Shown piece after piece: positions 36,280-61,478 of a stretch of DNA of 64,000 bases. Within the stretch, counting starts at the first letter, position 1. The number at the start of each line of letters is the position of its first letter. The DNA lies in the NCBI RefSeq assembly GCF_030685535.1, contig NZ_CP131601.1:2294001-2358000 (forward strand). The letters run 5' to 3'. The translations under genes and the position numbers were made by a program. The notes beneath the pieces are model-generated. The model saw only the letters and a program-made list of their open reading frames with translations, had not been told where the DNA came from and ran no database searches. Source of the stretch: Photobacterium leiognathi. GTDB lineage: Bacteria > Pseudomonadota > Gammaproteobacteria > Enterobacterales > Vibrionaceae.

Positions 36280-36467
36280 CTAACAATATCTCTAGATCAA
36301 TATTCACAAATATGCATATGGGTTCATTTTTTGACCATTATCGCTATTGAGAATTTTCTAAAAAACAGTCAACCCTATAAAGACACTGACTATTAGAAAT
36401 TAACGGGGCAAAAAGCATATCTATGCACGTCAAGATTTTGACCCATAAAAACACGTTAAGGTACGCC
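36280..36467. promoter_or_regulatory. Probable promoter region of the recombinase operon
   Basis: This gap precedes the first gene of the operon and should hold its promoter. I could not fix a -35/-10 pair. AAGG before ATG 36468 is the ribosome-binding site that decides the start of the first gene. Confidence 0.35.
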
Positions 36468-36944
36468 ATGGCAAAAAGAAAAATGATCGCTCTTCGAGCA
36501 TTACAGTTGTCTTATCATCCACTGCTCGCACACATCACAGAGGGTGATCATTTTCAGCTGACCAACCATGCACAATTATCCAGCCTGTCCAACTTAGAAA
36601 TACAGTCTTTAATTGAGCAAATGACACTGTCTGTTGTGCCTCATCCCAATAAACCCTCTCAGTATTATTTGCTTTCACCAGCTGCTGATTTTTTCTTTAT
36701 CCAACAGCATCCTTATGCCTCAACACTGCAAGTCCAACTGCTTATTTATCCCTTAGAAGACGCTGAATTCATCATCAAAACATTGAGTTTTATTGCGCCA
36801 AGCCTGCATCACGGGCTTCAAACGAAAGCATTACATAACCTCTCAAAACGTCATCAATTAGCGAAGCAATATATGAAATCTGTACCTTCAAAACGAAAAC
36901 TGGCTGTTATTGCCAATACTTCAGCGTCTGCAATTCGCCACTAA
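36468..36944 (+). CDS. Unknown protein 1 of the recombinase operon
   Basis: The protein has 158 residues, starting MAKRKMIALRALQL. I chose ATG 36468 because AAGG precedes it at good spacing. A start 15 codons upstream lacks one. It is basic and probably soluble, with a His-, Leu- and Gln-rich composition and a basic C-terminus (SVPSKRKLAVIANTSASAIRH). I do not recognise the family. As first gene of a tight five-gene operon with recombinases it may be a DNA-binding accessory or directionality factor. That is inference from position only. The next gene starts 14 bases later. Confidence 0.7.
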   Translation: MAKRKMIALRALQLSYHPLLAHITEGDHFQLTNHAQLSSLSNLEIQSLIEQMTLSVVPHPNKPSQYYLLSPAADFFFIQQHPYASTLQVQLLIYPLEDAEFIIKTLSFIAPSLHHGLQTKALHNLSKRHQLAKQYMKSVPSKRKLAVIANTSASAIRH

Positions 36945-36958
36945 ATCGAGAGGTCAAG

Positions 36959-37468
36959 ATGGGATTACAAGCAGCCATAGCCAAAAATAACCGAAGTAAT
37001 AACAGTGGCGGTATTGCGCTCGACCCACTCCATACGGTGAATACATTGTCGATAGTCATTCATTATTTTAAGGCAATGTTTACGTGCACCAAAGACAGGG
37101 AAGCGTGCCTTATTACTTTTATTTATTTGTGGCTGACGCAAGCATTGGAAAATATAAAAAGCGCTAACGATATCCCTTCGCTAACACGTGTGACAGGCAG
37201 TGAACCATGCGATGCACACCGATTACGTATTATTCATGTAGATGGCAAATCTTGGGTTGAATATGCTCAATGTTATTCGACGCCACAGGGCGTTTTTTGG
37301 CAGTGGCAACCTATCCCAATCATATTAAATAATTTTTTCTATCACTATGTTCAGACCCTTTCAACAACAGCGATAAAGCCGTTACTTAGCGCTCAACAGA
37401 GACAACAACTTTGGGTTCTCATTGATAAATCATGGAAGACTCCAAAACACTATACCCAGTTTGGCTGA
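36959..37468 (+). CDS. Unknown protein 2 of the recombinase operon
   Basis: The protein has 169 residues and no signal peptide. GAGG precedes the ATG at good spacing. Segments include MFTCTKDREACLITFIYLWL and VTGSEPCDAHRLRIIHVDG. I recognise no family. Its place between protein 1 and the recombinase-fold protein, with gaps of 14 and 12 bases, shows that it belongs to the operon. Confidence 0.7.
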   Translation: MGLQAAIAKNNRSNNSGGIALDPLHTVNTLSIVIHYFKAMFTCTKDREACLITFIYLWLTQALENIKSANDIPSLTRVTGSEPCDAHRLRIIHVDGKSWVEYAQCYSTPQGVFWQWQPIPIILNNFFYHYVQTLSTTAIKPLLSAQQRQQLWVLIDKSWKTPKHYTQFG

Positions 37469-37480
37469 CTGAGAAAGGAT

Positions 37481-38572
37481 GTGTTTTTCCGCTATTTCAC
37501 CATCATGGCTCAACGTTGTCCTTATCTATCAACAACTGCAAAATCCATTGTGTTGCCAGAGCATGTTCTGCATCACGCCAGTGCTAAAGCTTATCAAAAG
37601 GAAAACAGCAACCAGATCCGTTATAAAATATTTCGTGCGCACAATCAGTATTTAAAACGATTAGACACTGCCAGTAAACAATATGGTATCAACCTTTCAA
37701 TCAACAATGCTCATCACAAGATGGCGTTGTTATTTGACGCCAGCATCACTCCCCCTTCCTATTTAAACCCAAAAGGGGAGATCAATGCTTTTGAGAGACG
37801 GAAGAATGCGGAGAATCAAGGCTATCAATACATTCAATTACCTTCTATCGAGATAGGTTCACGCCGAGCATTACCCCTTGATCAAGTGCGACGTTTTTTT
37901 GATGTGATTGATGAGCATGTTAAAGACTGTATTCCCCATCCGTGTTGGACAAAAAGACAATTAATCGACTACTACAATGCATTAACGTATCAACTTGCGT
38001 TTCAATTTTTGATTTTAACGGGGGTGAGGCCGACCCACGCACTTTCACTTGAAAAGCGTCGACGTTATGGCGTTAAACAAGCCATACATTCAGATAAAGG
38101 TCGCTATCGTGTTATTTATCTTTGTGATTTTTTACAAGAATCCATTCGCTATTACTTGTCAATTCAACAAGGTTTGCTCACACAGCTCAATATTAAAACA
38201 ACATCGCCCTATTTATGGTTTTTGTTAGATAAGGATAATCAAGTCCAAGTATTGAATGCCAAAATCATGCGCCAATTTATGCAGCAATATTGGCCTTATC
38301 GAGATACTGATATCAATACCGTTGTCCCTTATTGTTTACGACATACCTTTGCACAAATGGCACAGTCACACACTCATCCACAACTGACCACTCAGCAGAT
38401 TGATCGCTTAATGGGGCATTCATCATTTGGGGAACACCTTGGCAGTGATTTATGTTTCCCAAGCAATAAAAAAGCGCTTTTCGCCTTTTTAAATCACTTG
38501 CCAGAAAAACTGTATTTCACCAGTGATCCATCAACACGATTTTCATTCAATGATGTGGTGGAGGCTTCATGA
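37481..38572 (+). CDS. Degenerate tyrosine-recombinase-fold protein
   Basis: The protein has 363 residues. The C-terminal half follows the tyrosine recombinase pattern. Box I Arg is in LTGVRPTHALSL (R183), box II Arg in PYCLRHTFAQM (R287) and the box II His in RLMGHSSFG (H313). The first residue of HxxR is Tyr (Y284), and no Tyr occurs about ten residues after H313 (that position is Asp, D323). It should therefore not form the covalent DNA bond and may act as a structural partner. The start is uncertain: GTG 37481 has AAGGA only one base before it, and ATG 37505 lacks a site. Its end overlaps the next gene by four bases (ATGA). Confidence 0.75.
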   Translation: MFFRYFTIMAQRCPYLSTTAKSIVLPEHVLHHASAKAYQKENSNQIRYKIFRAHNQYLKRLDTASKQYGINLSINNAHHKMALLFDASITPPSYLNPKGEINAFERRKNAENQGYQYIQLPSIEIGSRRALPLDQVRRFFDVIDEHVKDCIPHPCWTKRQLIDYYNALTYQLAFQFLILTGVRPTHALSLEKRRRYGVKQAIHSDKGRYRVIYLCDFLQESIRYYLSIQQGLLTQLNIKTTSPYLWFLLDKDNQVQVLNAKIMRQFMQQYWPYRDTDINTVVPYCLRHTFAQMAQSHTHPQLTTQQIDRLMGHSSFGEHLGSDLCFPSNKKALFAFLNHLPEKLYFTSDPSTRFSFNDVVEAS

Positions 38573-41481
38573 TAGGAAATAGTCAACTTGATGATATTAC
38601 TAATGACATTATTGAAGCACATGAGCAGTTGGGCTTACCTTGCGAAGATAAAACACATTTAACCCATATCATCACATTATTACATGAGGATCAGCATTCC
38701 CAACGTTACATCTCCGACGATGAAATGCGTGTGATTAAAAACGCCATCAGAACAATCCCTTCGGGAAAACAACGCGTATTATTGCGAGCATTAGATAATA
38801 CATTATTTTATCTTCATCAGTATTGCGGCTGGCAACTTCCTCAACCTCAAAATAAGAAGCTAAACGATACCCAGTTAGCGTGGATGCAATTAATCAGTCT
38901 ACAAGCGCATGATGCATCCCGTCTCTATGAGGATTATCTTAAAGATAGACTCGACTTTCTCAATCATCGCCCTGTACTTCACATCGGTTTTATCACTGTC
39001 GCACTCAGTATTGAAGTCGCGCCACTCCCTCTCGCTTACTGGGCTGATATTCTTAATCGTCCTGACGCTATCGAACTCTACGAGCAACAATTAACCTTAG
39101 TTGTCTATCACCAATCCAAACGAGCCTCAAACACTCAGCAACCGAATTATTTTACCCGTTACGCATTAACCCCGTTTACTTGTCGGTTATTACTTGATTA
39201 CTTTGGTACTAAAGAGCAAAAGGTAACAACAAAGGGATTACACCAGAGGCTCAATGCGTATTTATCCGCAGCACCTTACTACCTCGAAAATAAGACTTTG
39301 AGCCAATGGCAACATTGTTTTCAACAAATTTGGCTTATCGAATATGGGCTCTCTAGCGTACTACTCTTAGATATGAGCCAACCGCATCGTCATGTGGCCT
39401 TTCATCCGAGCCCCTCTCAAGCACAACATGACCATGCTATTTCGAATATTTACGATCAAGATTGGCATCAGCCTGATTACAGCACGTTTTCTTCTAATAA
39501 ATCTCAAGGTTGGCCTCACCGAGACTTACTTAAAACCATCAAAAATCAGCCATCTTCGAAATGGAAAGCGCTGTTAAGCGAGCAATTTTCAACACCTCCC
39601 GCTTGGCATCACGACAATATTGTTCCGACAATTTTATATTTCTTCACCTATGACTTAATCCAATATGGTGGCGTGAAAGCAGCCACACTGAGTGTGAGCA
39701 GCTTGAGTAAATATACCAATATCTATAAAACACTCAGCAACCACCCACTGACCTATATTCAGGCCTGTGATCATGATGGCTTAATGCAATGGGCAACGAC
39801 GCTTTACGAAAGTATCGACAGTGAGGGGGATCGTTGGCTCATCTATAACTTTTTACGTTTTCTACCACAATTGTCGGTGACAGAGCATTTTGATATTAGC
39901 CAATTTTCATCCCCTTTTCTTTCTTTAAGCGTTGATCCTTTTCGTTTAAGTGTCGATCAATGTTTCATCACGCTTGAAGCGTTATTATCTCAATCCAATG
40001 GCAGTGCACTACAACGTCTTTTTTGTGCTGTCGCCTTAATTTTAGGCTTTTATAGCGCATTACGACGCGGGGAAGTATTACGGCTTCGTTGCCAAGATAT
40101 TGTGTGTAATCCTGATAATCCTTGCCGTTTTACTTTGCGAATCTGTAATACGAGTGAGGGCAACACAAAAAATAAGTCAACACGTTTTGTTTACCTCACA
40201 TTACCCGAATCTATTGCCAAACTCGTTCGTGTTGTTCGCCATATCAAACGCCATTGCTCACCCACAACACCTTTACTTGGCTTTGAAAATGAGTCGATGA
40301 CTTCTCGTCAATTACATTACCTTTTGCCCGTCACTAAGGCTCTGAAAGCGCTGTGGGGCAACAATGTGCGTTTTCATCATCTTCGCCACAGTGGAGCTCA
40401 CTGGCTAATGCAACAAGGATTGCTACTCGCATTTGATTGGGATAACTCTCCTTTCTGTGTAGGAGACGCAACGCAAGCGATATTGACAAAGCAAGCGTGC
40501 CAAGAGCGATTTCATTTTTGGCTTGAAGGTCGCGACTTTTCACATATGAATGATGGATTATTGTTTGATGTTATCGGCGAACAACTCGGTCATAGCCATT
40601 ATGCCACCACTCGCTGGAGTTACTTACATGGGATTGAATGGCTTCCACCACTGTTTTTAATCAATGAGCGTTGCTTTGAACACAATGAATTACGTTATTT
40701 ACTTGGCATAAAGCCAGAGTCTAAAGATGTCTTTCGCTTTTTAAACACGCTTACATCAAAAAACCAAGATACAGGAACCCATTTAACATTAAGGCTAAGT
40801 GAGCTTGAGTTAACCCCCTATTTGTTAAAGAAAAAAGGATTTAAACAACTCAGACAGGTCTCACTTATTCAAGACAGTTTTGAAGTACCGAAAGATGGCA
40901 ATCATTTTCTTGCTTTGTGGTTATCACATTGCACAGAGAGCATTGTCCAGCCTGATAAGCGTCAGTCATCAACCACTGTTTTTAATTATCAAACTCAGCA
41001 TTTATTGAAATTATTAACTACTGATAATGAAACGATTTTCTCCTCACTCAGTGCGTTTTGGGCACTATCAGGTAGACATCAGCCAATTTCCTTTACCAAG
41101 CAACAACGGCAAGCGCTTCATCAACTTGGGCCAATCTTTGTCAACCGAGACAACCAGACACTATCTTTGACGGTTCGCTGTAAAAGAGACAATGGCTTGC
41201 GTTTTCAACAAGTATTTAGAACGCCACTCTTTAGGTGCTGCCACTTTATTTTTGAGCTTCAACAAAACCGAAAAAGCAAAATAACTAAAAACCTCCAGCT
41301 TCTTGAGACTTATTTTTCCACCGACAAAGACACACTCGCAACGAGAAAAGTAGACAGAGGGAGTAGCCAACTGACCATCACACTGACCTTTATTCCTCAA
41401 GCACCATTGTTATTTCAAATGCTATGTAATTTTTTAACGTACCCGAAGAGAGAACAATATGAAAAAACTATCCATGGATAA
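38569..41481 (+). CDS. Large tyrosine recombinase (970 residues)
   Basis: The catalytic domain is complete. R499 is in SALRRGEVLRL, H603 and R606 in FHHLRHSGAHWL, H675 in EQLGHSHYATT and the nucleophile Y685 in RWSYLHGIEW. It is preceded by about 450 residues, more than twice the usual N-terminal part, and followed by about 280 residues of unknown fold. Typical integrases have 300-450 residues. It overlaps the preceding gene by four bases and the next by 23, so all three are probably made together. It is probably the active strand-exchange enzyme of the element. Confidence 0.85.
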   Translation: MIGNSQLDDITNDIIEAHEQLGLPCEDKTHLTHIITLLHEDQHSQRYISDDEMRVIKNAIRTIPSGKQRVLLRALDNTLFYLHQYCGWQLPQPQNKKLNDTQLAWMQLISLQAHDASRLYEDYLKDRLDFLNHRPVLHIGFITVALSIEVAPLPLAYWADILNRPDAIELYEQQLTLVVYHQSKRASNTQQPNYFTRYALTPFTCRLLLDYFGTKEQKVTTKGLHQRLNAYLSAAPYYLENKTLSQWQHCFQQIWLIEYGLSSVLLLDMSQPHRHVAFHPSPSQAQHDHAISNIYDQDWHQPDYSTFSSNKSQGWPHRDLLKTIKNQPSSKWKALLSEQFSTPPAWHHDNIVPTILYFFTYDLIQYGGVKAATLSVSSLSKYTNIYKTLSNHPLTYIQACDHDGLMQWATTLYESIDSEGDRWLIYNFLRFLPQLSVTEHFDISQFSSPFLSLSVDPFRLSVDQCFITLEALLSQSNGSALQRLFCAVALILGFYSALRRGEVLRLRCQDIVCNPDNPCRFTLRICNTSEGNTKNKSTRFVYLTLPESIAKLVRVVRHIKRHCSPTTPLLGFENESMTSRQLHYLLPVTKALKALWGNNVRFHHLRHSGAHWLMQQGLLLAFDWDNSPFCVGDATQAILTKQACQERFHFWLEGRDFSHMNDGLLFDVIGEQLGHSHYATTRWSYLHGIEWLPPLFLINERCFEHNELRYLLGIKPESKDVFRFLNTLTSKNQDTGTHLTLRLSELELTPYLLKKKGFKQLRQVSLIQDSFEVPKDGNHFLALWLSHCTESIVQPDKRQSSTTVFNYQTQHLLKLLTTDNETIFSSLSAFWALSGRHQPISFTKQQRQALHQLGPIFVNRDNQTLSLTVRCKRDNGLRFQQVFRTPLFRCCHFIFELQQNRKSKITKNLQLLETYFSTDKDTLATRKVDRGSSQLTITLTFIPQAPLLFQMLCNFLTYPKREQYEKTIHG

Positions 41482-42703
41482 GTACTACCATCCACATATT
41501 ACTAAGATGTTAGACAGTTTCGATAAAACAGAGCGTGTGCCACTTCTCACTTTTATCATCGATCAAGCAGCTAATCATATTTGTCTTATTGGCGGAAAAA
41601 GTGGTGAGCCAACCATGGTAAAACTGCCTTTTGACGGACAAGATCCCACGCTCCAAGATGGAAAATGGTCCATTGACGCTGACATGTTCAAATACTATTA
41701 CCACAATTGCTTAAAATCCGTGCTAGAGAATGAACATATTGAATTGGAAATCGATGAGCACACCAGTGGCGATACTTATGTGATTGGATACACCCACGAC
41801 CAAGGTGTACGTCGTTGGAAATGTGACTCACCTTGCCAAGAGCACATCGATTATTTCACAACCATTGGAAATAAGTCGTACCAAAGCATCTCGGTTGATG
41901 CATTAGCTCCCATACTGAATGTGGCAGAAAGTCATCGTCCGTTAGAATTTTTTAAAATCGATAAGACAAAAAACGAGATCACAGTACAACGTGATAATGA
42001 TGTTTCAACGTTTCCTCTGCCTGATGATCTGGAGGAAAAAGTTGATTTAGTCGCTAACCAAGAAGGACTTTCGGTTTTAAAACATATTTGTGGTAATACG
42101 CAATCTGATTCGATTATGTTCAGTGTCGATAATGAACAACTTACCGTTACCGATGGTCATCATTGCTACTCTCGCTCACTGGCATCATTGACTGAATTTG
42201 AGAGTAAATCCAAAGTGGATTACGAAACGGAAGTGAAATGTGTTGTTGATATCTCTTCCTTAAAGTCAGAAATTGAAACCTACACACGCGTAAACCAAAT
42301 TAAAAGTAACAACCTTAGCTTACTCTACATTATCGATAATGAAGCTTTTCTCTCTGGTTTTGGGTTCACTGTTGAGAGTTTTAAAAGCCTTTCTGCATTA
42401 AGTATTACTGCGAAACAGATCTTGCTCTACAACATCAACTTAAATCAATTGCTGAAAGTGAAGCTCAAAAATATTACGGATATGAAGAGCATGACCTTGC
42501 GTATTTTAAAAGCGCCGGATGGTTCAAGAAAGTTAGGCTTTTATAATGAGTATGATACTGAGCGCCCTTACGACAGTATTCCTATTACGCTTGACACGAA
42601 TAGCCAAAATCTTAGTGCGATGCAAAAACTATTGGCACTTAGCAAGAAACAACATCGAGAAGATGGTTCCCAGCAGGATTTTCTTGGCTTTGACGGGATT
42701 TAA
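41459..42703 (+). CDS. Unknown protein of the recombinase operon (414 residues)
   Basis: The protein is acidic and soluble, appears beta-rich and is last in the operon. AGAGAG precedes the ATG, which lies inside the end of the recombinase gene. Two segments (SVDALAPILNVAESHRPLEF, and IMFSVDNEQLTVTDGHH near residue 220) weakly recall the repeated blocks of DNA sliding clamps. The C-terminus ends in QQDFLGFDGI, vaguely like a clamp-binding peptide. I regard this only as a hint. No catalytic motif was seen. A role in holding or processing element DNA is possible. Confidence 0.7.
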   Translation: MKKLSMDKYYHPHITKMLDSFDKTERVPLLTFIIDQAANHICLIGGKSGEPTMVKLPFDGQDPTLQDGKWSIDADMFKYYYHNCLKSVLENEHIELEIDEHTSGDTYVIGYTHDQGVRRWKCDSPCQEHIDYFTTIGNKSYQSISVDALAPILNVAESHRPLEFFKIDKTKNEITVQRDNDVSTFPLPDDLEEKVDLVANQEGLSVLKHICGNTQSDSIMFSVDNEQLTVTDGHHCYSRSLASLTEFESKSKVDYETEVKCVVDISSLKSEIETYTRVNQIKSNNLSLLYIIDNEAFLSGFGFTVESFKSLSALSITAKQILLYNINLNQLLKVKLKNITDMKSMTLRILKAPDGSRKLGFYNEYDTERPYDSIPITLDTNSQNLSAMQKLLALSKKQHREDGSQQDFLGFDGI

Positions 42704-42924
42704 AAGACTTTAGGAAGAGGACTGGACAAATATCCAGTGTCGACTAAGGTTAGATATGCACAGTAATTCATTACTGTCTCAGTTTGGCAGTTGAGACGAA
42801 GTGGCGGCAACCACTTCGCCTCGTATCGGCTGCCCCGACGTTTAAGCGAACCAAAGCTCAGCCGACAGATTCAGTGTATCTAAGTCTCTCGGCGATGGGT
42901 AGATCTATCTGATGGAGACTTGAT
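42704..42924 (+). promoter_or_regulatory. Dense array of hairpins leading into the integrase gene
   Basis: Six inverted repeats follow one another. ACTGGA/TCCAGT at 42721-42738. ACAGTAA/TTACTGT at 42760-42777. GTCTCA/TGAGAC at 42776-42797. CGAAGTGG/CCACTTCG at 42797-42818. TCGGCTG/CAGCCGA at 42826-42865. AAGTCTC/GAGACTT at 42882-42921. The last one covers most of the GGAG (42914-42917) of the integrase gene. The GTCTC and GAGAC arms of the third and sixth repeats can also pair with each other. It may be a structured leader RNA, an attachment or folded recombination site, or both. Confidence 0.65.
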
Positions 42925-44100
42925 ATGGCTAACATTCGAGTGCGCCCTAATGGGATCATTCAATACGATATTCACATTTATGGCGAACGCTTTCGTGAAA
43001 CTTCAGGCATGCCTGCCACACCGAAGAACCTCAAAATTGCAAAAGCGACCATTAAACAAATCAATGCCGAAATTGATTTAAACACCTTTCAATACCGTGA
43101 TTACTTTCCTGACAGTAAAAAGGTCGAATTGTTTGAGCAATTGCAACGGGACAAATACCCCGATCGTTTCTTTCCCTACTTTGATGATTTTGCAAAGAAA
43201 TGGATAGCGCAACAAGCACCTAAATGGAAAAACAGCTACCGCAAAACCGTTGAGCGTAACGTACATCATTACTTGATCCCGTTTTTTGGTAATACCCTAA
43301 TCAATGAAATTTACCTAAATCAATTAGATCAATTTCGTCAGCAATTAACCGAGATGGAAAAAGAAGATGGTAGCCGCATATTATCGAATGCACGCGTTAA
43401 TAATATTTTATGGCCGTTAATTTCGATTATGATTGTGGCGGCAGAAGAATTTAAATTTGATTATCCCTTTTCACGCTACCGCGCATTGCGAGAGCAGAAA
43501 GCTGACAGTTCACCGATGACATTACAGGAAGTAAAACGCTTTTTAGATTATGTCGAACCAGCATGGTATGACTATTTTCTACTGCGTTTTATGACAGGGA
43601 TGAGAAGTTGTGAAGTGCACGGCCTTCAACTTAAGCATATTGATTTTGATCACCGCTTAATAAAAGTCCGTCAAAATGTGGTGAATGGTGAAATTACCGA
43701 TGTGAAAACCCCAAAATCACGCCGTGATTTACCCATCAATGATATTTTATCATCCTCTCTTGAGCGTATTACCGCAACGTTAACTGAACCTGACGATTTT
43801 CTGTTTACCAATGACGATGGCGAACCACTGGATACCCGCTATATTGGCAAACAAGTCTGGCACCCGACACTTAAACGTGCAGGATTAAAAACACGTCGCC
43901 CTTATGAAACCCGCCATACCGCAGCAGTGCTGCATTTGGCAGCCCATGAAAATCCACTCTATGTATCGCAACTGCTTGGGCACAGTAATACACGTTTGCT
44001 GTTTGAAATTTATGCCCCCTATGTGTTTAATGCTGCGCGCAATGACGGCAGTGCCTTTTCAGATTTAATGCGCTCTGGTGGCGTGATCAAATCTGACTAA
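42925..44100 (+). CDS. Phage-type tyrosine integrase
   Basis: The protein has 391 residues. The N-terminus MANIRVRPNGIIQYDIHIYG is an arm-type DNA-binding domain like DUF3596. A core-binding SAM-like domain lies at about 85-175. The catalytic domain has Arg in FMTGMRSCEVHGLQL, the box II segment RPYETRHTAA, His in QLLGHSNTRLL and Tyr in FEIYAPY. GGAG precedes the ATG but lies in a hairpin. It reads in the same direction as the recombinase operon and is separated from it by the structured region. It stops just before a strong two-way terminator and galU. Confidence 0.92.
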   Translation: MANIRVRPNGIIQYDIHIYGERFRETSGMPATPKNLKIAKATIKQINAEIDLNTFQYRDYFPDSKKVELFEQLQRDKYPDRFFPYFDDFAKKWIAQQAPKWKNSYRKTVERNVHHYLIPFFGNTLINEIYLNQLDQFRQQLTEMEKEDGSRILSNARVNNILWPLISIMIVAAEEFKFDYPFSRYRALREQKADSSPMTLQEVKRFLDYVEPAWYDYFLLRFMTGMRSCEVHGLQLKHIDFDHRLIKVRQNVVNGEITDVKTPKSRRDLPINDILSSSLERITATLTEPDDFLFTNDDGEPLDTRYIGKQVWHPTLKRAGLKTRRPYETRHTAAVLHLAAHENPLYVSQLLGHSNTRLLFEIYAPYVFNAARNDGSAFSDLMRSGGVIKSD

Positions 44101-44186: not shown

Positions 44187-45137
44187 TTACGCGTCTGTTT
44201 TTTCACTTAATGGTGTGAGATCTAAACTATCAGTGAACGAGGTATCATTGAGTGTTTTGATATAAGCAGTGAAGGCTTCGCCTAATGCTTTATCGCGCAT
44301 ACCGTATTCAACAAATGCTTTTGCATAACCTAACTTGTCACCACAATCGTGAGAGCGACCAGTCATGTGGAAAGCTTCAACGGTTTCATCTTGCATTAGC
44401 ATATCAATGGCATCAGTTAGCTGTATCTCATCACTTGCACCTGGTGGTGTCATTGCTAGCTTATCCCAAATGTTATGAGATAAAACATAACGACCAACCA
44501 CAGCAAGGTTAGACGGTGCATCTTCAATAGCTGGCTTTTCAACCATACGCGTCATAGGGCAAGACTCACCTACTTTTAGCTCAGTACCGTTACAATCAAC
44601 CACGCCGTACTTTGACACATCGCTCATTGGCACAGGCTCTACCATGACTTGGCTCGCACCTGTTTGTTCAAAATGATTGATCATCGCTGCTAAGTTTTCT
44701 TTGCTTTGATCGGCGGTGTATTCATCCATAATTACATCTGGCAATACAACGACAAACGGCTCATCACCAACTAGCGGTTTGGCACACAAGACAGCATGAC
44801 CTAAGCCTTTTGCCTGACCTTGACGCACATGCATAATGGTCACATCTTTAGGACAAATTGCTTGAACTTCATCTAACAACTGACGTTTAACACGCGCTTC
44901 TAATGTTGCTTCTAACTCAAATGAGGTATCAAAGTGGTTTTCAATCGCGTTTTTAGAAGAGTGCGTCACTAATACAATTTCTTTAATACCCGCGTTGACA
45001 CACTCATTCACAATATATTGAATAAGCGGCTTATCCACTAACGGTAGCATTTCTTTTGGAATTGCTTTGGTTGCCGGAAGCATACGAGTACCTAGCCCTG
45101 CCACTGGAATGACAGCTTTTTTTATTTTGTTGTTCAT
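44187..45137 (-). CDS. galU: UTP-glucose-1-phosphate uridylyltransferase
   Basis: The protein has 316 residues. It makes UDP-glucose for surface polysaccharides. The nucleotidyltransferase signature [19 protein letters not shown] is at about 14-32. Other GalU features are [34 protein letters not shown] and the EKP motif ([13 protein letters not shown]). It is the last gene of the capsule locus on the minus strand, next to the epimerase and ugd genes. Together these supply UDP-glucose, UDP-glucuronate and probably UDP-galacturonate. Confidence 0.96.
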
Positions 45138-45162
45138 TATTCATCCGTATTTAATGAAGGAC

Positions 45163-46168
45163 TTATTTATTGTAAAAATCGCGATACCACTGAACAAAGT
45201 TCTCAACACCTTCTTTAATTGGTGTTTGAGGCTTATAGCCAGTAGCTTCAAACAAACCGCTAGTATCTGCGTAGGTTTTATATACATCACCTGGCTGCAT
45301 TGGCATGAAGTTTTTCTTCGCTTGAATATCTAAACTTGATTCAAGTGCTTCAATATAATCCATTAACTTTTCACACTTACCATTACCAATATTGTAAACA
45401 CGATAAGGTGCAGAGCTGTCTGCTGGTGAACCGAGTTTCTACAGACCAGTCAGTTTGTTTCTGAGGTACTACATCTTGAATACGTAGAATACCTTCAACA
45501 ATGTCATCGATATATGTAAAGTCGCGTTGCATATCACCATTATTATAAATATCGATTTCCTCGCCATTCATAATCTTATTGGTGAACTTAAACAATGCCA
45601 TATCAGGACGGCCCCAAGGACCATAAACTGTAAAGAAACGTAAGCCTGTTGTTGGTAAATTATAAAGATGTGAATAAGTGTGAGCCATTAGCTCATTTGC
45701 TTTTTTACTAGCTGCGTAAAGTGAAATTGGGTGATCAACTGAGTCACTTGTTTCAAATGGCGTTTTAGCATTCAAGCCATAAACAGAGCTAGAAGAGGCA
45801 TAAATTAGATGCTTAACCTTATTATGGCGACAGCCTTCTAATACATTTACAAAGCCAACCAAATTACTATCAGCATAAGCTAGTGGGTTATCAATAGAAT
45901 AACGAACACCCGCTTGAGCGGCTAAGTTAATTACGCGATCAAACTGCTGCACTTTAAATAGCTCAGCCATGCCTTCACGATCAGCTAAATCTAATTTAAT
46001 AAATTCGAAATTAGGATGCTCAATACGTGCTAAACGAGATAATTTTAAATTTACATCGTAATAATCATTTAAATTATCGATACCAACTACTTGATGACCA
46101 AGCGCAGTTAGACGCTCAGTAATAGCACTACCGATAAAACCAGCAGCACCAGTTACTAAATATTTCAT
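45163..46168 (-). pseudogene. UDP-glucuronate 4-epimerase-type gene with a frameshift
   Basis: The first 245 or so residues are a normal short-chain epimerase: GAAGFIGSAITERL for NAD binding, YASSSSVYG, and the catalytic Tyr and Lys in YAASKKANE. After TDWSVET the frame shifts and runs to an early stop at 45383. One base later in register the sequence reads GSPADSSAPYRVYNIGNG and continues to a normal end at 45163. A single extra base near 45434-45437 explains this, and the whole gene would then encode about 334 residues. It is either a recent inactivating mutation or a sequencing error. Confidence 0.85.
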
Positions 46169-46201
46169 AATAGCTCAACTTATAAATGGAGAAGTAATAT
46201 A

Positions 46202-47368
46202 TTAATCGTTACCAAATAGATCACGGGTATAAACTTTATCGGCAATATCAGAAAGCTCTTCAACCATACGGTTTGAAACAATCACATCACAGCTTTGTTT
46301 AAAATCAGATAAATCTTCAATAACTAGTGAGTTAAAAAACTCTTTTTCTTTTAACACAGGCTCATAAACAACGACTTCAATACCTTTCGCTTTAATGCGC
46401 TTCATAATGCCTTGAATGCTAGATGCTCGGAAGTTATCAGAACCCGCCTTCATGATTAGTCGATAAATACCAACACGCTTCGGATTTTTAGCAATGATAG
46501 AGTCTGCAATAAAATCTTTACGAGTTGTATTCGCATCAACAATCGCGCCAATGATGTTATTTGGTACATCACGATAATTTGCACGAAGTTGTTTAGTGTC
46601 TTTAGGTAAACAATAACCACCATAACCAAATGATGGATTATTGTAGTGATTACCAATACGAGGATCTAAGCCAACACCTTCAATAATTTGGCGTGAATCT
46701 AAGCCATTAGATGCGGCATAAGTATCTAATTCATTGAAGTAAGCAACACGCATAGCAAGGTAAGTATTAGAGAATAATTTAACCGCTTCCGCTTCTGTGG
46801 AGTCTGTGAACAATACAGGTATATCTTCTTTGATAGCACCTTCTACAAGAAGATTAGCGAAAACTTGAGCGCGCTGACTTTGCTCACCAACGATAATACG
46901 AGATGGATAGAGATTATCGTAAAGCGCACGACCTTCACGTAAAAACTCTGGCGAGAAAATAATATTCTCACAGCTAAACAGCCCTTTTACCTGCATGGTA
47001 TAGCCAACAGGTACTGTCGATTTAATTACCATGACGGCGTCAGGATTGATTGCCATTACATCTTTAATTACTGCTTCTACTGACGAAGTATTAAAATAGT
47101 TGTTTTCTGTATCGTAATCCGTTGGTGTGGCAATCACCACATACTCTGCATCTTTATAAGCTAATTCTTTATTTAACGTTGCAGTAAAGTTTAACTCTTT
47201 ATTTTGAAGAAAATCTTCAATTTCCTTATCTGCTATTGGAGAGATTTTGTCATTAAGTAATTTTACTTTTTCTTCGATAATATCTACAGCAATAACCTCA
47301 TGATGCTGCGCTAAAAGCATAGCATTAGACAGGCCTACATACCCTGTACCAGCAATGGCAATTTTCAT
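46202..47368 (-). CDS. ugd: UDP-glucose 6-dehydrogenase
   Basis: The protein has 388 residues. It oxidises UDP-glucose to UDP-glucuronate with NAD. The N-terminal Rossmann motif is [14 protein letters not shown]. Family segments follow: [29 protein letters not shown] and the catalytic cysteine in [15 protein letters not shown]. It lies between a glycosyltransferase gene and the epimerase gene, consistent with making acidic sugars for the capsule. Its product is the epimerase's substrate. Confidence 0.96.
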
Positions 47369-47370
47369 TT

Positions 47371-48492
47371 TTATTTCTCTTTTAATAATTCATCAATTGC
47401 ATCTAAATATTTATTAATCACAATTTTTTCATCAAATTCGGCTTCAATCTTCTTACGGCTCTTTAACCCCATATCAATACGTTCTTGGTGAGAAAGATTT
47501 ATTATTTTCTCTAACGCATTTACAAGAGAAGGAGTCGAACGAAGTTCACATAGATAGCCATTGACTCCATCATCTACTGTTTCACGACAACCAACATTAT
47601 CAGTCGTTACGATAGGTTTTCCCATCGCACCAGCTTCAAGAAGCGACTTAGGTACTCCTTCTCTATAAAAAGAAGGAAGCACCATACAATCAGCTTTAGC
47701 TATTTCTTTTTCAACTTCATCAGAAACACCAAGATAATTGACAATCCCTTCGCTTACCCAGTCTTGCATATCTTTTTTAGATACCGCGGAAGGGTTATCT
47801 ACATCAAGAAAACCTAGTAGATTAAATTCGACATTATGTATATGTTTTGCTTTTAACTCTCTCGCTGCTTCAACATAATGACCTATACCTTTGTCATAAA
47901 GCATTCTTGCGATTAATAGGAATCGAACAACTCCATCATCAGGTGATGGTGAAAAATTGAATCGACTTAAATCAGCACCAGAACCAGGAAGGCGATCGGT
48001 AATATTTTCTTTAGCTAATTTATTTTCTAAAAATAGCAACCTATCATCTTCATTTTGGAAGAATACTTTATCGACTTTTTTGTGACTTATTTTATAAAGC
48101 AATCGAGCTAATTTCGAAGTTATAGATTCATTAATAAATAAAACACCAAGGCCAGCAATATTATTTATAACTTTAATATTATTTAACTTTGCAGCAATTG
48201 TACTATAGATATTATTCTTTGGAGTAAAGTTTAAGACGACATCATAAGAATCAGCTTTATATATCTGATTAAACCTATATAACGTTTTCAAATCTTTTAA
48301 AGGATTCGTTCCACCTTTATCTATTTTAATGTCAATATAATTAGCACCGAGATCTTCAAGCTTGTTGGAATACTCATCCCATGGTGAAATTGCAGTAACC
48401 CTATAACCTTTATCAACAAGAGCTAGAATAGTATTTCTTCTGAAGTTATAGAGATACCAACTAGTATTTGACGAAATAATAATGTTAATCAT
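47371..48492 (-). CDS. GT4-family glycosyltransferase
   Basis: The protein has 373 residues and a GT-B fold. The N-terminus [18 protein letters not shown] and the segment [10 protein letters not shown] resemble PglA-like transferases. The C-terminal donor-binding half contains [14 protein letters not shown] and the E-x7-E motif around [18 protein letters not shown]. It probably adds one sugar to the lipid-linked repeat unit at the cytoplasmic face. The sugar cannot be told. It has two-base spacing to ugd. Confidence 0.88.
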
Positions 48493-49356
48493 TTAATAAC
48501 TCGTCCAATATTTACCAAATAATTTATCAAGTTCAATACAAGGAAACTTTTCGAATCCAGCACCTGGGTAGATAGTTAATTCACCAAAAGTAACTTTATT
48601 ATTGTAAAAATATAAGTCAACTCTTACAAAATCAAAATTCTCACCAATTAATTCAGATATCCTTATCATTTCATCTAAAAAAATAGGTTTTGGTGGAGAC
48701 GGTATCTTCATCTCATGAGAATATTCGAAATTCAAATCTCTCCAGTTACGATCAAACATATTTCTTTTATGATTAATGAATCGATCTGAGTCAAGTTGTA
48801 TAAATTCCACTCGGCCATTAAACACAAAAAACTTATAGTCGTCAGGTGCACTGCCTTCAAAATCAAGAAACTCTTCAATAAAAACTCGTCTAGGTATATC
48901 CTTGTAAGCCCATTCTCCTAATGATGATGATTGATCATGCTTCAACCATTTAGACGCTAGTTTTATCATCTTTCTCTGTGAAATGTGGTTATTATTTCTT
49001 ATTATTTCAATAGTTTGACTTGTGTGATTTGCTTTAAAAACATAATCACGGGGAAGTAATGAAAAATCTATTGATTCAATATCGTTAGTATCTGAACCAA
49101 TCCATAGATTTCTAGGTATATAAATATCAGAGCAAATACTTTTAACCCAATCTTTAGATGCGATTTTATCAGCAGCTACAGTAAATAATGGGTTATGATC
49201 TATAATTTTTCTAACTTGTAGTTTTTCATTGAAAGTCTCAGGTTGTGAAAAATTAATAAACCTCTTAAATCTTCTAAAAAATAATATGTTTAGTTTTATT
49301 TTATTAGGAAGTAAAGAAATAATTTTAGAAAAAAGTCGATATTGTAAACTAGGCAT
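48493..49356 (-). CDS. TupA-like ATP-grasp protein
   Basis: The protein has 287 residues. ETFNEKLQVRKIIDHNP, VAADKIASKDWVK and DYVFKANHTSQTIEI near the N-terminus, then FIEEFLDFEGSAPDDYKFFV and DFVRVDLYFYNNKVTFGELT, fit the TupA-like ATP-grasp family found in polysaccharide loci. Teichuronopeptide synthesis gave the family its name. Such enzymes join carboxyl and amino groups using ATP. It may attach an amino acid to a uronic acid in the polymer, which would fit the ugd gene in the cluster. That role is inference. Confidence 0.82.
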   Translation of the reverse strand: MPSLQYRLFSKIISLLPNKIKLNILFFRRFKRFINFSQPETFNEKLQVRKIIDHNPLFTVAADKIASKDWVKSICSDIYIPRNLWIGSDTNDIESIDFSLLPRDYVFKANHTSQTIEIIRNNNHISQRKMIKLASKWLKHDQSSSLGEWAYKDIPRRVFIEEFLDFEGSAPDDYKFFVFNGRVEFIQLDSDRFINHKRNMFDRNWRDLNFEYSHEMKIPSPPKPIFLDEMIRISELIGENFDFVRVDLYFYNNKVTFGELTIYPGAGFEKFPCIELDKLFGKYWTSY

Positions 49357-49375
49357 ATAAAAATAATAAACTCAT

Positions 49376-50443
49376 TTATAATTTAGAAGAGAAGTGTTTT
49401 TTATATTTAAATGTATTTATTTTTCTATCAGCTATTCTTATCAAAGTAGATATCGACAGTCTCTTGATAAACCACTTAAAGTCTCTCTTGGATGACAATT
49501 CAGAAAAAACTTCTTCAGAAAAGGCTGATCGTGTTCTCAAATAAGAGCTTAAAGGTAACTTTAAATATTCATTAGCTTTATTATATATATCATTAGCTAC
49601 AGAACTATTTATAAGCATCTTTTCCTCCCCTTGAAAAATGGGAATATACTTCATTGTAATATTATTTCCATCATATTCCAAAATTAAAATAATTGAAGAC
49701 TTGTTATTATCAGACTGCTTTATCAATAAATTAGAAGTCCTTTCATCATATAAGTCATCAAAGCAAAAATTACCGAGACTATAAGCAAGAACTGAATTTT
49801 TGAATTTTTCAACACCTTGTAAAACATGGGGATGATGTCCATAATATACATAATTATTAATATCTGCTAATTTTCTAGCAAATTTTATATCATCCACGCT
49901 GCATAAATTTACGTGCTCTATACCAGAATGAACACTTAATATATTTAAATAACCTTGTGATGAATAAAACTTGAATTTATTCTCAACAAGTGAATATTTT
50001 AATGCGTTAACACCATTTTTTTTATCTAACCCTAATGGGTTAGTATTATAGGAACAGTAACCGTGAAATGCTAACTTCAACTCCTCATTTATAAAATCTT
50101 TACCTTTTACACCAAACCAGTCAATATTATTTTCTTCAAGAAGTGTAATTGTCTCATTTAAACCGTTAGGGCCAAAATCAAAAATATGGTTATTAGATAA
50201 ACACACTGTATTTATATTAAGGTGTTTTAAAATATTAATATTTTCAAAACTTGAGGAAATATACGCTGATTTATTTCCATGTTTTTTTGATTTATTAATA
50301 AATGGGGCTTCGAGATTACCGACGCAAATATCACAGGAATCAAGGATTGGTTTTATATCAGAGAAGTAATTTTTAATATCTTTATTTTTATTTAAATCGA
50401 ATTTTCCAAATAAAGCAATATCGCCAACAAAAGCAATTTTCAT
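49376..50443 (-). CDS. CapA-like metallophosphatase-fold protein (copy 1)
   Basis: The protein has 355 residues. The metal-binding pattern of the CapA/PGA_cap family is clear: FVGDIALFG, NLEAPF, LSNNHIFDFGPNGLNET and the later YYGHHPHVLQGVEKF with YSLGNFCFD. Members were first linked to poly-gamma-glutamate capsules, and many occur in other polysaccharide loci with unproven roles. No signal peptide is visible. A second related gene lies at 54420-55532, with low overall similarity, so it is not a recent duplication. Confidence 0.87.
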   Translation of the reverse strand: MKIAFVGDIALFGKFDLNKNKDIKNYFSDIKPILDSCDICVGNLEAPFINKSKKHGNKSAYISSSFENINILKHLNINTVCLSNNHIFDFGPNGLNETITLLEENNIDWFGVKGKDFINEELKLAFHGYCSYNTNPLGLDKKNGVNALKYSLVENKFKFYSSQGYLNILSVHSGIEHVNLCSVDDIKFARKLADINNYVYYGHHPHVLQGVEKFKNSVLAYSLGNFCFDDLYDERTSNLLIKQSDNNKSSIILILEYDGNNITMKYIPIFQGEEKMLINSSVANDIYNKANEYLKLPLSSYLRTRSAFSEEVFSELSSKRDFKWFIKRLSISTLIRIADRKINTFKYKKHFSSKL

Positions 50444-50448
50444 CTAAC

Positions 50449-51609
50449 TTACCTATTGATAATATTAAAGATTGATTCATTCATAGTATTGATTGAAAAC
50501 TTTTTAAAGAAATCAGTAGTAGGTATATTTTTTCTACGTTCAATAATTTCTTTTATTTCTTTATCAAAATCACAAAGAGATATATCATCAACAACTGTTC
50601 CAAAACAACTATCATAGACAATTTCATTGACCCCAGTAGTTTTATTAGCTAAAACAGGAGTTCCTAAAGCTATAGATTCAATTAAAACTGTTGGTAAACC
50701 TTCACTTGCTGAAAATGTTTTTTCTTCGCCATTAAGCGTAATACGGCACTTTTCGAGAGAGCTAAATAATAATAAATCAGACTTTTTAATAAAATCATAG
50801 GGATTGTTAACCCAACCGTGAAATTCCACTAATACGTTTTTTGGTAAATCATTTATTAACTCGATAATGTATTTCTTATAAGCTATACCAATGTCGCCCA
50901 CAGGAGAACCAAGGACGTTTAAAATAACATTTTCTTTAAAATTAGAATTTATCAGGTTTTCAATTAAAACGTGAAGTCCTTTATTTGGAACAATAGTACC
51001 AATAAATAACAGGTTTATAACATCAGTTTTTTTTTCATATAACTTATCACATTCTTTAAATTCAAAACCATTATAAATTACATTAATATCATCTCTAATA
51101 TTAATGAAGTTATCAGCTATAGAACATGAAGGAACTATTACTTCATCAGCCATCCCAAGTAAAAAACGATTAATTTTATTACCAAAATTTAATTTGCCAT
51201 GCAAATGCCAAATAACTTTTAACTTAAAAAACTTTGCAAATAAGCCACAAAGAATAATTCCTTTCGGATCATAACAATAAATATTATAAATTCTATGTTT
51301 CTTTGCGGTATAAATAACTTGTAAGTTAGATATAAATACCGAGAAAAAAAGTAATAACTTAGATTGAAAAGATAAATTCTTAATGGAAAAATCTCCAGTA
51401 CCGAAGAATCGGTTTAATAATTTATGCATTAAAAATTGATGATTATTGAATCTTTTATAATAACCATCAAACAAACTATCATCATGCTTTAAAAGTGAGT
51501 AGATCTCAAAGCCTTTATCAGATAATGAATCAACAATCTTTAAAGTGATTTTCTGAGAACCCGCTAATAAGCTTGAAGCTTCAACAACCAACAATCTTTT
51601 ATTTTCCAT
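50449..51609 (-). CDS. GT4-family glycosyltransferase
   Basis: The protein has 386 residues from the ATG at 51609, which overlaps the end of the upstream gene by 11 bases. A start 11 codons earlier is less likely. The GT-B fold shows ASSLLAGSQKITLKIVDSL at the N-terminus, then FIGTIVPNKGLHVLIENL and EGLPTVLIESIALGTPVLAN, the usual donor-site motif. It acts on lipid-linked intermediates of the repeat unit. Codon use is strongly AT-biased, like its neighbours. Confidence 0.85.
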   Translation of the reverse strand: MENKRLLVVEASSLLAGSQKITLKIVDSLSDKGFEIYSLLKHDDSLFDGYYKRFNNHQFLMHKLLNRFFGTGDFSIKNLSFQSKLLLFFSVFISNLQVIYTAKKHRIYNIYCYDPKGIILCGLFAKFFKLKVIWHLHGKLNFGNKINRFLLGMADEVIVPSCSIADNFINIRDDINVIYNGFEFKECDKLYEKKTDVINLLFIGTIVPNKGLHVLIENLINSNFKENVILNVLGSPVGDIGIAYKKYIIELINDLPKNVLVEFHGWVNNPYDFIKKSDLLLFSSLEKCRITLNGEEKTFSASEGLPTVLIESIALGTPVLANKTTGVNEIVYDSCFGTVVDDISLCDFDKEIKEIIERRKNIPTTDFFKKFSINTMNESIFNIINR

Positions 51610-52222
51610 TATACCAATCAACAATATTAATGTACTTTTCATACTTTCGAAAAGAAGTAAAATCAGAAGATATTACTTCTTTTTCAAAAGTACAGTGAAC
51701 TTCGTTTTTTAAATTATAGCTATTAGCGGTAAATAAAATATTATTCTTTCCCTCTAATAAAGAAAATCTATTCGCAATATCTGTATTAAAACCATCTCTA
51801 TCCGTCATTATAAATCTAACATTATCTTTAACTATTTTTTCTTTTCTAGAATTCCATTTTAAACGAGCTTCATCAAATGTTTTATAATGTAGAAAATGGA
51901 TTTCAATATCCCCTAAAGTACCTATAGGATAATAAAAATCATTCGTATATTTTGAAAATTTAGTTTCTATTAGATCTAAAGATAGATAGTAATCTAAATT
52001 CTCGCAAAAATTGATAAAACAAGGTGCGTAAAAAAAAGTATTAATCGTAGGTGATAAAAATTCCTTATTTAAATCACTATATATACACCCAGCTAAACAG
52101 TTACTCGAAATTATTGTTATAGACTGGTTATTAACTTTTCGACAATAAAATATTTTTATAAACTCTCGATATAATTTAAAAAAAGTTTTCCTATATATAA
52201 ATTTAAAAATTCTAAAGAACAT
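51599..52222 (-). CDS. DUF1919 family protein
   Basis: The protein has 207 residues. ITIISSNCLAGCIYSDL, the following FLSPTINTF, and YPIGTLGDIEIHFLHY with DEARLKWNSRKEKI match the DUF1919 pattern. The family occurs in exopolysaccharide and lipopolysaccharide loci and is assumed to transfer or modify sugar residues, without a proven reaction. The gene overlaps the next by 11 bases and directly abuts the polymerase gene, so it belongs to the operon. Confidence 0.82.
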   Translation of the reverse strand: MFFRIFKFIYRKTFFKLYREFIKIFYCRKVNNQSITIISSNCLAGCIYSDLNKEFLSPTINTFFYAPCFINFCENLDYYLSLDLIETKFSKYTNDFYYPIGTLGDIEIHFLHYKTFDEARLKWNSRKEKIVKDNVRFIMTDRDGFNTDIANRFSLLEGKNNILFTANSYNLKNEVHCTFEKEVISSDFTSFRKYEKYINIVDWYNGK

Positions 52223-53374
52223 CTATTTCTCTCTATAGTTAATGATAACCATCAGATAAAACAAAAAACCAAAATATAAGAAACTAACTTTAGTCAATAA
52301 AATTATTAAAAATAAAGCACGATTAGTATAACTTTTAACTCTTTTAAAAAACAAAATAATACTTGTGATTAAACCAATAATACCGAACTTTATTATTATA
52401 AATAACCATAAACCATTATCATTTAGAGCAGCTACTCCTGCGGCCCACAGATTTCCTGACTTCATATATTCTGAAAGAGAAGGTATCACTCCTAACATAC
52501 CATTTCCAAATAAGATCTCTAATTTATCTTGTTCAAATACCTTTAATAATAAATTACTTCGTAAAGATGTTGCCGTATCAATAGAACCAAGACGTTCAAG
52601 ACCAATATAGATTAAAAAGATCAACAAAACTGGTAAAAATAGGAAAAATAAATATTTAATATAAGAATTATTAGTTTTTCTATAGAAAATTAATAGTACA
52701 ATAAAACCATAGATAATTGACGCTACTGAGAAAGACAATAGAACAGAAAAAACACTTATTTTTAATATGTTATCAATTTTATTATCTAAATAATATCTCG
52801 CTGAAATCAGAAGAATTATAAAGGCACTATAAGTTGAAGGCTCTTCATACAATCCTGTCGGTCTATATATATATCCAATAAATGGAATAGAAAAATTACT
52901 TTTATATCTTTGGACTTCACCAGTTAAAAAGTAAAGAGGATCTAAATAATAAGAAGTTCCATAGACTAAAATAAACTGTAATAGGAAAAACGAAACATTT
53001 AATATGATTACGAAATTTATTAGATCTTTCATTTTACCCCTATCATCTTTAAAAAATAGGAATACAATAAATATTGATAGCAATTTAACCAATAGGCCTA
53101 AAAAATAATCACTTAAATCATAATTGAAATTACCTTTATGTGGGTATAAATTAAAATAAGATGGTAAAGCTAATAGAAAAGAAAAAAATATGAGAACAAG
53201 AAAAGTATTTATAGTACTTTTCATCACTTTATGACTAAAACACAAAATAATTAAAAGAAAAATAAATAAAGGCATCATAAAAAGATATCTAATGCTTCCA
53301 AAATTTTCCATGAAGCCTATAAAAACCAAAAAAAGTGAGATATAAAAAGAAACATAATACTTTTTTACAATCAT
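52223..53374 (-). CDS. Wzy-type repeat-unit polymerase
   Basis: The protein has 383 residues and about ten membrane helices. RPTGLYEEPSTYSAFI in a large loop is the hallmark of O-antigen/capsule polymerases and is followed by helices of Wzy type. The protein joins repeat units at the periplasmic face. Sequence similarity between Wzy proteins is low, so the call rests on topology, this loop and position in the cluster. It is highly AT-rich. Confidence 0.83.
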   Translation of the reverse strand: MIVKKYYVSFYISLFLVFIGFMENFGSIRYLFMMPLFIFLLIILCFSHKVMKSTINTFLVLIFFSFLLALPSYFNLYPHKGNFNYDLSDYFLGLLVKLLSIFIVFLFFKDDRGKMKDLINFVIILNVSFFLLQFILVYGTSYYLDPLYFLTGEVQRYKSNFSIPFIGYIYRPTGLYEEPSTYSAFIILLISARYYLDNKIDNILKISVFSVLLSFSVASIIYGFIVLLIFYRKTNNSYIKYLFFLFLPVLLIFLIYIGLERLGSIDTATSLRSNLLLKVFEQDKLEILFGNGMLGVIPSLSEYMKSGNLWAAGVAALNDNGLWLFIIIKFGIIGLITSIILFFKRVKSYTNRALFLIILLTKVSFLYFGFLFYLMVIINYREK

Positions 53375-56741: not shown

Positions 56742-56743
56742 TA

Positions 56744-57733: not shown

Positions 57734-57809
57734 TACGACCAACTCTCAATTTTATTCAAAATATATTATTAAACATGATATTCATAATTAATTTTAATAA
57801 GAATAATTT

Positions 57810-58895: not shown

Positions 58896-59114
58896 ATAGC
58901 GGCCAACTTTTAATATGATATTAACGGTAGGTATGTGACGCGGTTTAACTTAAATCTGTCATTTAAAATTGATAATAAGATCCTTTTTACTATGACTTGA
59001 TTACAATTTATCGTGCTTTATTTTTAAGTATCACACTTAAAAAAGTTGAATTATTTCAACTTTTCTTGTCAGTATTTTTAGACACATGAGACGGATTTCT
59101 TGATATTTGAGACA
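58896..59114. other. Intergenic region before the wecA-type gene
   Basis: No gene was found. If the terminator at 59115-59147 works, a promoter for the second half of the capsule operon must lie here on the minus strand. Otherwise transcription comes through from wza by RfaH-type antitermination. Confidence 0.45.
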
Positions 59115-59147
59115 TAAAAAAGCACTAGTGGAAACCACTAATGCTTT
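59115..59147 (-). terminator. Terminator between wzc and the wecA-type gene
   Basis: On the minus strand AAAGCATTAGTGG pairs with CCACTAGTGCTTT (one mismatch) around TTT, followed by a run of T. It lies about 100 bases after the wzc stop. It probably limits transcription beyond wza-wzc. Confidence 0.8.
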
Positions 59148-61423: not shown

Positions 61424-61478
61424 GAACAATATTCCATGTCAGTCATATTTTATTCAAGATTGGGTGATGAAATCTTGT

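Follow-up and report, generated by a model that had tools for sequence, protein, structure and literature searches.

Recombinase-rich islands of marine Gammaproteobacteria include the gamma-mobile-trio (GMT) systems, and multiple tyrosine recombinases within one element are likewise a feature of Tn554 and of RIT elements. Here, we analyzed a locus in a 64,000-nucleotide stretch of the Photobacterium leiognathi genome (contig NZ_CP131601.1, positions 2,294,001 to 2,358,000; hereafter the window, whose first letter is position 1). At this locus, a small gene (g1), a tfp-like gene, a gene for a giant tyrosine recombinase (g4) and a gene for a predicted sliding clamp (g5) are followed by a structured leader and an ordinary integrase gene (g6), and we propose that together they constitute an exchange module. 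The closest described systems are the strand-biased circularizing elements (SEs) SE-6283 and SE-6945, in which an ordinary and a large active tyrosine recombinase are combined with a degenerate one, Tfp, and an auxiliary protein, and whose hosts, like those of the module, are free-living Gammaproteobacteria. SEs are further marked by imperfect inverted repeats of 13–19 bp at their termini, with a 6-bp fingerprint, and by strand-biased circularization that leaves no empty site. According to the cited passages of PMC9345347, counterpart proteins of the two SEs share only 20.5–26.6% identity, the N-terminus of IntB is extraordinarily long, and the regions holding the four core genes span 5,541 and 6,432 bp; copy-out via a nicked circle has been proposed (passages of PMC10214605 and PMC9345347). 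GInt islands (ginABCD) also encode three recombinase-type proteins, one of them degenerate, and a fourth protein; the passages of PMC10214605 that describe them mention neither a clamp nor an RNA leader nor a tie to polysaccharide loci. The same passages describe Tn554 without a Tfp counterpart, the archetype RIT recombinases as all retaining the tyrosine, and neither with a clamp.

We compared the module with these systems by their descriptions. The combination that characterizes SEs, namely an ordinary recombinase, a large recombinase with an RHRY active site and a degenerate Tfp, is present in the module. However, the SE core order intA-tfp-intB-srap at one end was not found, and the module instead reads g1-tfp-g4-g5, then leader-g6. 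It is further set apart from the SE descriptions by the separate promoter region and leader of its ordinary integrase, by the additional g1 and by its polysaccharide neighbourhood; where the module has g5 with its predicted clamp fold, SEs are described with Srap, to which passages of PMC10214605 assign, at low confidence, a TetR-like beginning and a coiled-coil end. Because the order, the predicted clamp, the leader and the neighbourhood all differ, we did not file the module as an SE, although it may still act in an SE-like mode. An earlier note on this DNA had likened it to the tfp-intB genes of SEs while stating that the gene set differs. The likeness holds for the parts (ordinary, degenerate and giant recombinases with an auxiliary protein) but had overlooked the ordinary integrase and the leader, and the gene order indeed differs. 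Either of the readings that it offered, a new integrative element or a recombination machine serving another purpose, may still apply. The earlier note had named as refuting its proposal the case that all the proteins belong to some described family of elements whose gene order is identical, and searches of Pfam, NCBIfam, PHROGs and PADLOC did not yield this outcome. NCBIfam gave no match to GMT-named models, which it presumably contains. Among open-licence papers, searched by titles and abstract starts for recombinase with clamp, or recombinase or integrase with capsule or O-antigen loci, we found nothing describing the module.

The five open reading frames (ORFs) from which a five-gene operon at 36468–42703 had been proposed were all verified on the + strand, at 36468–36944 (frame open from 36423), 36959–37468, 37481–38572, 38569–41481 and 41459–42703, with gaps of 14 and 12 bases followed by overlaps of 4 and 23 bases. 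The second and third ORFs share one frame, and a lone in-frame TGA (37466–37468) separates them; in relatives this frame is open and both halves lie within one ORF, and the stop in the window may represent decay, a sequencing error or a leaky codon. Judging from these sequences, the two ORFs are therefore one tfp-like gene, and the operon has four genes, one of which is interrupted in the window copy, rather than five. Nor does the unit end at 42703, because the leader and g6 (42925–44100) belong to it as well.

The order g1-tfp-g4-g5-g6 was found in dozens of loci from several genera, and is therefore not due to chance. We detected 128 relatives of g4 in 5.8 billion proteins, and the named ones among the best 120 of these were mostly from Photobacterium, Vibrio, Shewanella and Pseudoalteromonas. 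A pattern scan of 84,980 species genomes yielded 35 loci, among which L052 and L053 are distant. We examined 38 loci with a close g4 (L019–L051, L054 and L056–L059), some partial or split; the set includes stretches added from related genomes, L056 and L057 represent one genome, and L055, whose g4 is truncated, was tallied separately. Among the 38 loci, g5 was present in 36 (interrupted in L020; tblastn) and g6 in 35, and L059 holds a further g5 relative detected by profile only (98.4% probability). As exceptions to the order, g6 precedes the operon in L050 and L059 and is missing from the L056 copy, and L047 is permuted. Of 148 related genomes, 14 contain g4 relatives, a count that includes the own genome and several distant matches. 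A pattern scan of viral contigs found no g4 relative, and plasmids gave a single weak partial match.

For g1 (36423–36944), an alignment of 17 sequences showed by eye a helix-turn-helix-like C-terminus (KKxLAxxAxxSPSAIR), and we regard a helix-turn-helix there as probable; its best Pfam match was HTH_Mga at a sub-threshold 0.017. In Pfam, NCBIfam, PHROGs and PADLOC, g1 and g5 gave weak matches only (HTH_Mga 0.017; CopG-like 0.0068). The first half of the tfp-like gene (36959–38572) was found in 37 related loci, and in 36 of these the gene is a single ORF of 504–560 codons, the L041 ORF being cut by a contig end; it is split in L027, and in L055 (genome G006, outside the 37) the halves sit in different frames. 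In the alignment, its product retains near-invariant R357, R461 and H487 (L019 numbering), and lacks the first H of HxxR and the catalytic tyrosine. Its second half matched a PHROGs integrase (E 5.5e-11), and a sub-threshold Phage_integrase match in Pfam was given by the intact relative in L019, from the luminous Photobacterium phosphoreum JCM 21184, whose module as a whole reads intact. From these sequence features, the whole product is a catalytically degenerate recombinase-fold protein; degeneracy had been recognized before, but for what is the second half of this gene and not a separate one. The 970-residue product of g4 (38569–41481) carries R500, H603-x-x-R606, H675 and Y685 invariant across 30 aligned sequences, in agreement with its earlier description as a giant tyrosine recombinase with a complete active site, and matched Pfam Phage_integrase at 27.2 bits (cut-off 27.1). 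An ordinary phage-type tyrosine integrase with Arm-DNA-bind_2, SAM-like and Phage_integrase domains (Pfam) is encoded by g6. The products of g4, g6 and the second tfp half matched general recombinase or integrase families only in the four family databases. Profiles of g4, tfp and g5 gave no match among PDB sequences (g5, none at E ≤ 1), and profile–profile comparison detected no relation between Tfp and g4, although both are recombinase-like.

The 414-residue product of g5 (41459–42703), previously called an orphan, indeed has no usable family name, but it can now be described as a predicted sliding clamp. Its AlphaFold model, compared using Foldseek and VIA-align, has a DnaN-like fold with six beta-alpha-beta-beta-beta repeats in residues 1–379, and this predicted structure thus has the three domains and six repeats of DnaN-type clamps. 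It differs from DnaN in an extra C-terminal helix, in a clamp-binding-like tail and in the position of its gene inside a recombinase operon. In the window the tail motif is QQDFL (42671–42685). When the final 75 residues were examined in 31 g5 sequences, 25 had a pattern of this type, compared with 22 of 125 control windows; the consensus of clamp-binding motifs is given as QLxLF in a passage of PMC4549789.

The DNA separating g5 from g6 contains a conserved block, which consists of a palindrome and then, in the window, a 138-nt leader (42787–42924) running up to the g6 start. The window palindrome, ACTGGACAAATATCCAGT (42721–42738), is operator-like and overlaps a possible –35 element. Of 35 loci, 32 have the pattern CTGG-N8-(A/C)CAG upstream of g6; upstream of g1 or tfp it was found in 5 of 36, and the background is 0.04 per 300 nt. 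The LexA operator of the SOS response, which we take to be CTGT-N8-ACAG, resembles it; the g6 palindrome is CTGG-N8-ACAG or CTGG-N8-CCAG, and the exact LexA consensus in this form occurred once, upstream of g1 in L025. In three Vibrio loci (L021, L022 and L048), the CTGG palindrome is absent before g6, and a CGATTTTGGAAAT-like stretch was seen by eye upstream of both tfp and g6.

We assessed the structure of the leader by pair counts, folds and covariation in 33 sequences. Of all cells, 96.2% were paired, compared with 89.4% in shuffles and 30–50% when slid; two-sided changes were found at 10 pairs, compared with 6.7 in shuffles, and eight of the ten fall in helix 2. Covariation was 0.252 vs 0.129, and for the 11 of 33 sequences that were folded, z ranged from –2.35 to –5.70. 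A CCAUYGG segment has two partners, namely an upstream CCGAUGG and the arm immediately 5΄ of the Shine–Dalgarno sequence. Pairing on the Shine–Dalgarno side was complete in 28 of 29 scored leaders, where the variable pair was C-G in 20, U-A in seven, U-G in one and mismatched in one; the other four of the 33, including the window, could not be scored for this pairing. The best folds buried the Shine–Dalgarno arm in L024, L036, L043 and L046, and contained the alternative pairing in L019, L021, L025, L028, L054 and L100. In the window, the CCAUY arm is lost, and the best fold hides the Shine–Dalgarno sequence via a different arm. The leader is thus a covarying RNA with two competing pairings, and a new candidate regulatory RNA; no curated Rfam 15 family matched window positions 42600–43000 at E ≤ 1. 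Of 146 genomes, a search with the leader model returned 13, the very ones in which g6 was found, and 13 of the 14 matches abut g6 (exception, G061:C1:914776); the model was built partly from matched sequences, so that this result shows exclusiveness and not independent discovery.

To the right of the module, on the opposite strand and convergent with it, lies a polysaccharide cluster (44187–62609), which the earlier note had not linked to the locus and which we treat as context outside the claimed module. It encodes Wza, Wzc, Glycos_transf_4, a flippase-type protein, glycosyltransferases, an epimerase, a nucleotidyltransferase and a UDP-sugar dehydrogenase; the annotation comes from Pfam on ten proteins, one of them unmatched, with the nucleotidyltransferase and the dehydrogenase assigned through BLAST clusters with scanned relatives. 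The epimerase gene beside the nucleotidyltransferase gene (45163–46168) is broken into 261 and 66 codons; several relatives have about 334. At 62682–62689 on the minus strand stands GGCGGTAG, which we take to be an ops-like motif; the 8-mer has a second copy in the window at 23125. We then located Poly_export (PF02563) in 34 genomes with g4, each with one to four such genes; L028, L034, L041, L047 and L050 were outside this test. In all 26 genomes with at least 20 kb of contig to the right, which are kin and not 26 independent events, Poly_export lies 20.6–43.4 kb right of the main g4, on the opposite strand; for G061 the distance was taken from the second g4 copy, the first being 46 kb from Poly_export. 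In the remaining eight (G087, G155, G161, G162, G165, G166, G169 and G171), the contig ends 3–17 kb right of g4. Of eight right-flank proteins scanned, six came from diverse nucleotide-sugar genes (epimerases, phosphomannomutase, nucleotidyltransferase, CapD-type, UDP-sugar dehydrogenase) and two (L024 and L040) had no Pfam match, and the left flank showed no family common to all loci. In V. breoganii and V. inusitatus, the module is on chromosome 2. In G152, G156 and G171, another Poly_export gene lies 29–40 kb left of g4 on the same strand, and the module may there stand between two convergent polysaccharide clusters.

Comparison of occupied and empty sites, another check suggested earlier, identified one genome (G010) whose outer flanks are collinear on both sides and from which the module is absent. 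There, the left MFS gene is 200 bases from the nucleotidyltransferase gene found at 44187 in the window. The window has about 12.3 kb extra, which also includes genes for a beta-propeller protein and a 506-codon, aldehyde-dehydrogenase-like product (by eye). Remnants of g6 lie beside the same nucleotidyltransferase gene in G033 (the last 30-odd bases) and in G001 (the 3΄ part). Gene distances had hinted that G025 might represent the empty site for the entire polysaccharide cluster, but this gained no support, since wza and wzc are still present; a 15-base 'direct repeat' flanking wzc-wza there proved to be an alignment effect.

We further compared the divergence of the genes among 34 loci (561 pairs having both genes). 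The identities of tfp, g4 and g5 intercorrelate at 0.956–0.965, compared with 0.44–0.53 with g6. Identity of g6 reached 80% or more in 58 pairs, and in 37 of these g4 was at most 50% identical, as in L031/L024 (g6 99%, g4 32%, g5 20%) and L019/L020 (98%, 38% and 22%), and in pairs with g4 at least 80% identical g6 was never more than 10 points lower. Relatives of g5 in P. leiognathi show 96, 88, 74, 57 and 50% identity to that of the window, and this species has no fewer than five g5 alleles. These sequence comparisons indicate that tfp-g4-g5 is exchanged as a block against a more stable g6. On the right, shared DNA of 13 pairs was traced to its edge; for 10 pairs this lies at most 45 nt from the g6 stop, and in the remaining three, among L024, L031 and L035, shared DNA runs on past it. 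The g6 palindrome was also considered as a recombination core; in 9 of the 12 pairs listed, shared DNA began at it or no more than about 20 nt away, but by BLAST the distance was at most 25 nt in only 4 of 10.

Several loci showed further arrangements. In G061:C2 (L056/L057), the tfp-g4-g5 block occurs twice, about 16 kb apart, with g6 after the second only, whose g4 is in two frames. L051, and L028 by eye, have additional g1-like genes or fragments directly upstream of the module, which look as if left by replaced earlier blocks. A 12,648-base Psychromonas contig (G176:C81; L047, L120 and L121) has both ends within g4, near residues 291 and 316 and with no end overlap, and sugar-dehydrogenase and epimerase-like genes after g6; this is a hint of circularity, and a circle, a tandem repeat and an assembly effect all fit. 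A second subfamily (L100 2787–11785 in G044; L101 3835–13146 in G026) comprises a small gene, genes for proteins of 778–787 aa, a 996–998 aa giant recombinase and 406–419 aa, and, on the opposite strand, g6 and a gene of about 212 aa, also near polysaccharide-looking genes (by eye). Profile comparison of g5 with the fourth gene in L101, a single sequence, gave no relation. The own genome holds a second, distant giant recombinase (L060 9416–12559, G000:C3; 25% identity over part), followed by ZorA/ZorB-looking anti-phage genes (by eye). In the window, the gene at 22580–27172 encodes 1530 aa and carries an S41 peptidase domain at the C-terminus of its product, which is unmatched in the otherwise collinear G010 region.

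The gene set, the predicted fold of g5, the covariation of the leader, the constant position and direction next to wza-type clusters and the block exchange are all computed, and the module is real, conserved and apparently undescribed; we infer its mobility, its cargo and the role of the clamp. With a probability of roughly 0.55, we consider g1-tfp-g4-g5 with leader-g6 to be an exchange module with several recombinases that has not been described before, occurs in marine Gammaproteobacteria and is specialised on surface-polysaccharide loci. In such a module, g4 would cut and exchange strands at the module ends, assisted in DNA binding by the catalytically dead Tfp as its partner and by the small g1 factor. 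The g5 protein would encircle or tether the recombinase complex on DNA while its C-terminal tail contacts the host clamp, and these contacts would couple exchange to replication, with copy-out as proposed for SEs. The g6 integrase, controlled by the promoter palindrome and by Shine–Dalgarno sequestration in the leader, would integrate or exchange DNA at the end of the polysaccharide cluster.

Several observations weigh against this reading. The fold of g5 is predicted, with about 10% identity to DnaN and an rmsd near 5 Å, and g5 gave no match to a Pfam DnaN domain at E ≤ 1. In the leader, further pair types numbered 14, below the 18.6 of shuffles. The left edges of shared DNA are scattered, as the BLAST distances to the palindrome indicate, and the block swap may be homologous recombination, site-specific replacement also being possible. 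No circular form, excision or transfer was seen. The tfp-like gene of the window is interrupted. A partial second g4 copy in G161 (C4), with a frame of 585 codons, lies on a contig that extends 159 kb to the right of it and has no Poly_export gene. The G010 cluster occupies the same chromosomal place with no module; therefore, the cluster need not be the cargo of the module.

It is possible, though in our view doubtful, that the locus is a divergent SE or GInt branch that moves by copy-out and carries polysaccharide genes as incidental cargo. Its part types match both descriptions in the passages of PMC10214605, and a layout with cargo on the right-hand side of the core would fit the SE plan. 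Since SEs diverge strongly, IntB is long and the core is roomy (passages of PMC9345347), distant kinship could be missed. However, tfp, the large recombinase and the clamp gene share one operon with the ordinary integrase last, behind its own promoter region and leader, and Srap is tentatively described as TetR-like and coiled-coil, not as a clamp. We view with similar doubt the idea that the window copy is a decayed remnant with no present function, which would be compatible with the exchange module for the family. The interrupted tfp and the split epimerase gene point to decay, as do L027 and L055/G006, where copies are split or truncated, and the g6 remnants in G033 and G001; against this, g1, g4, g5 and g6 are open in the window, the best fold of its leader still buries the Shine–Dalgarno sequence and, among 37 related tfp genes, 36 have an open frame. 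A resident machine that swaps or rearranges capsule or O-antigen genes to the benefit of the host, rather than a selfish element, appears unlikely: the patchy g4 and the G010 cluster lacking the module argue against it, and recombination sites within a cluster were neither seen nor sought, despite the linkage of all 26 main copies in fixed orientation, the ends of shared DNA at the g6 stop, where the neighbouring genes start, and the near absence from viral contigs and plasmids. A defence locus, in which recombinase and clamp folds sense or block foreign replication and are diversified by conflict, is very improbable, because PADLOC gave no match at E ≤ 1, the g4 active site is complete and invariant and a true integrase travels alongside, even though the block is fast, co-diversifying and allele-like, the palindrome resembles what we take to be a LexA box and the predicted fold is clamp-like.

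Returning to the exchange module, we suggest tentatively, and with less than even confidence, that it represents a separate class of mobile DNA, in which its own clamp ties strand exchange to replication, a two-state RNA regulates the integrase and polysaccharide clusters are home or cargo, driving surface-antigen exchange in marine bacteria. Many insertion-sequence transposases bind the host sliding clamp (passages of PMC4549789), and a protein of clamp fold whose gene sits within a recombinase operon would offer a solution unlike theirs. How copy-out tyrosine-recombinase elements meet replication is an open question, which such a protein makes directly testable. The polysaccharide link, in turn, provides a candidate mechanism for the exchange of surface-polysaccharide clusters.
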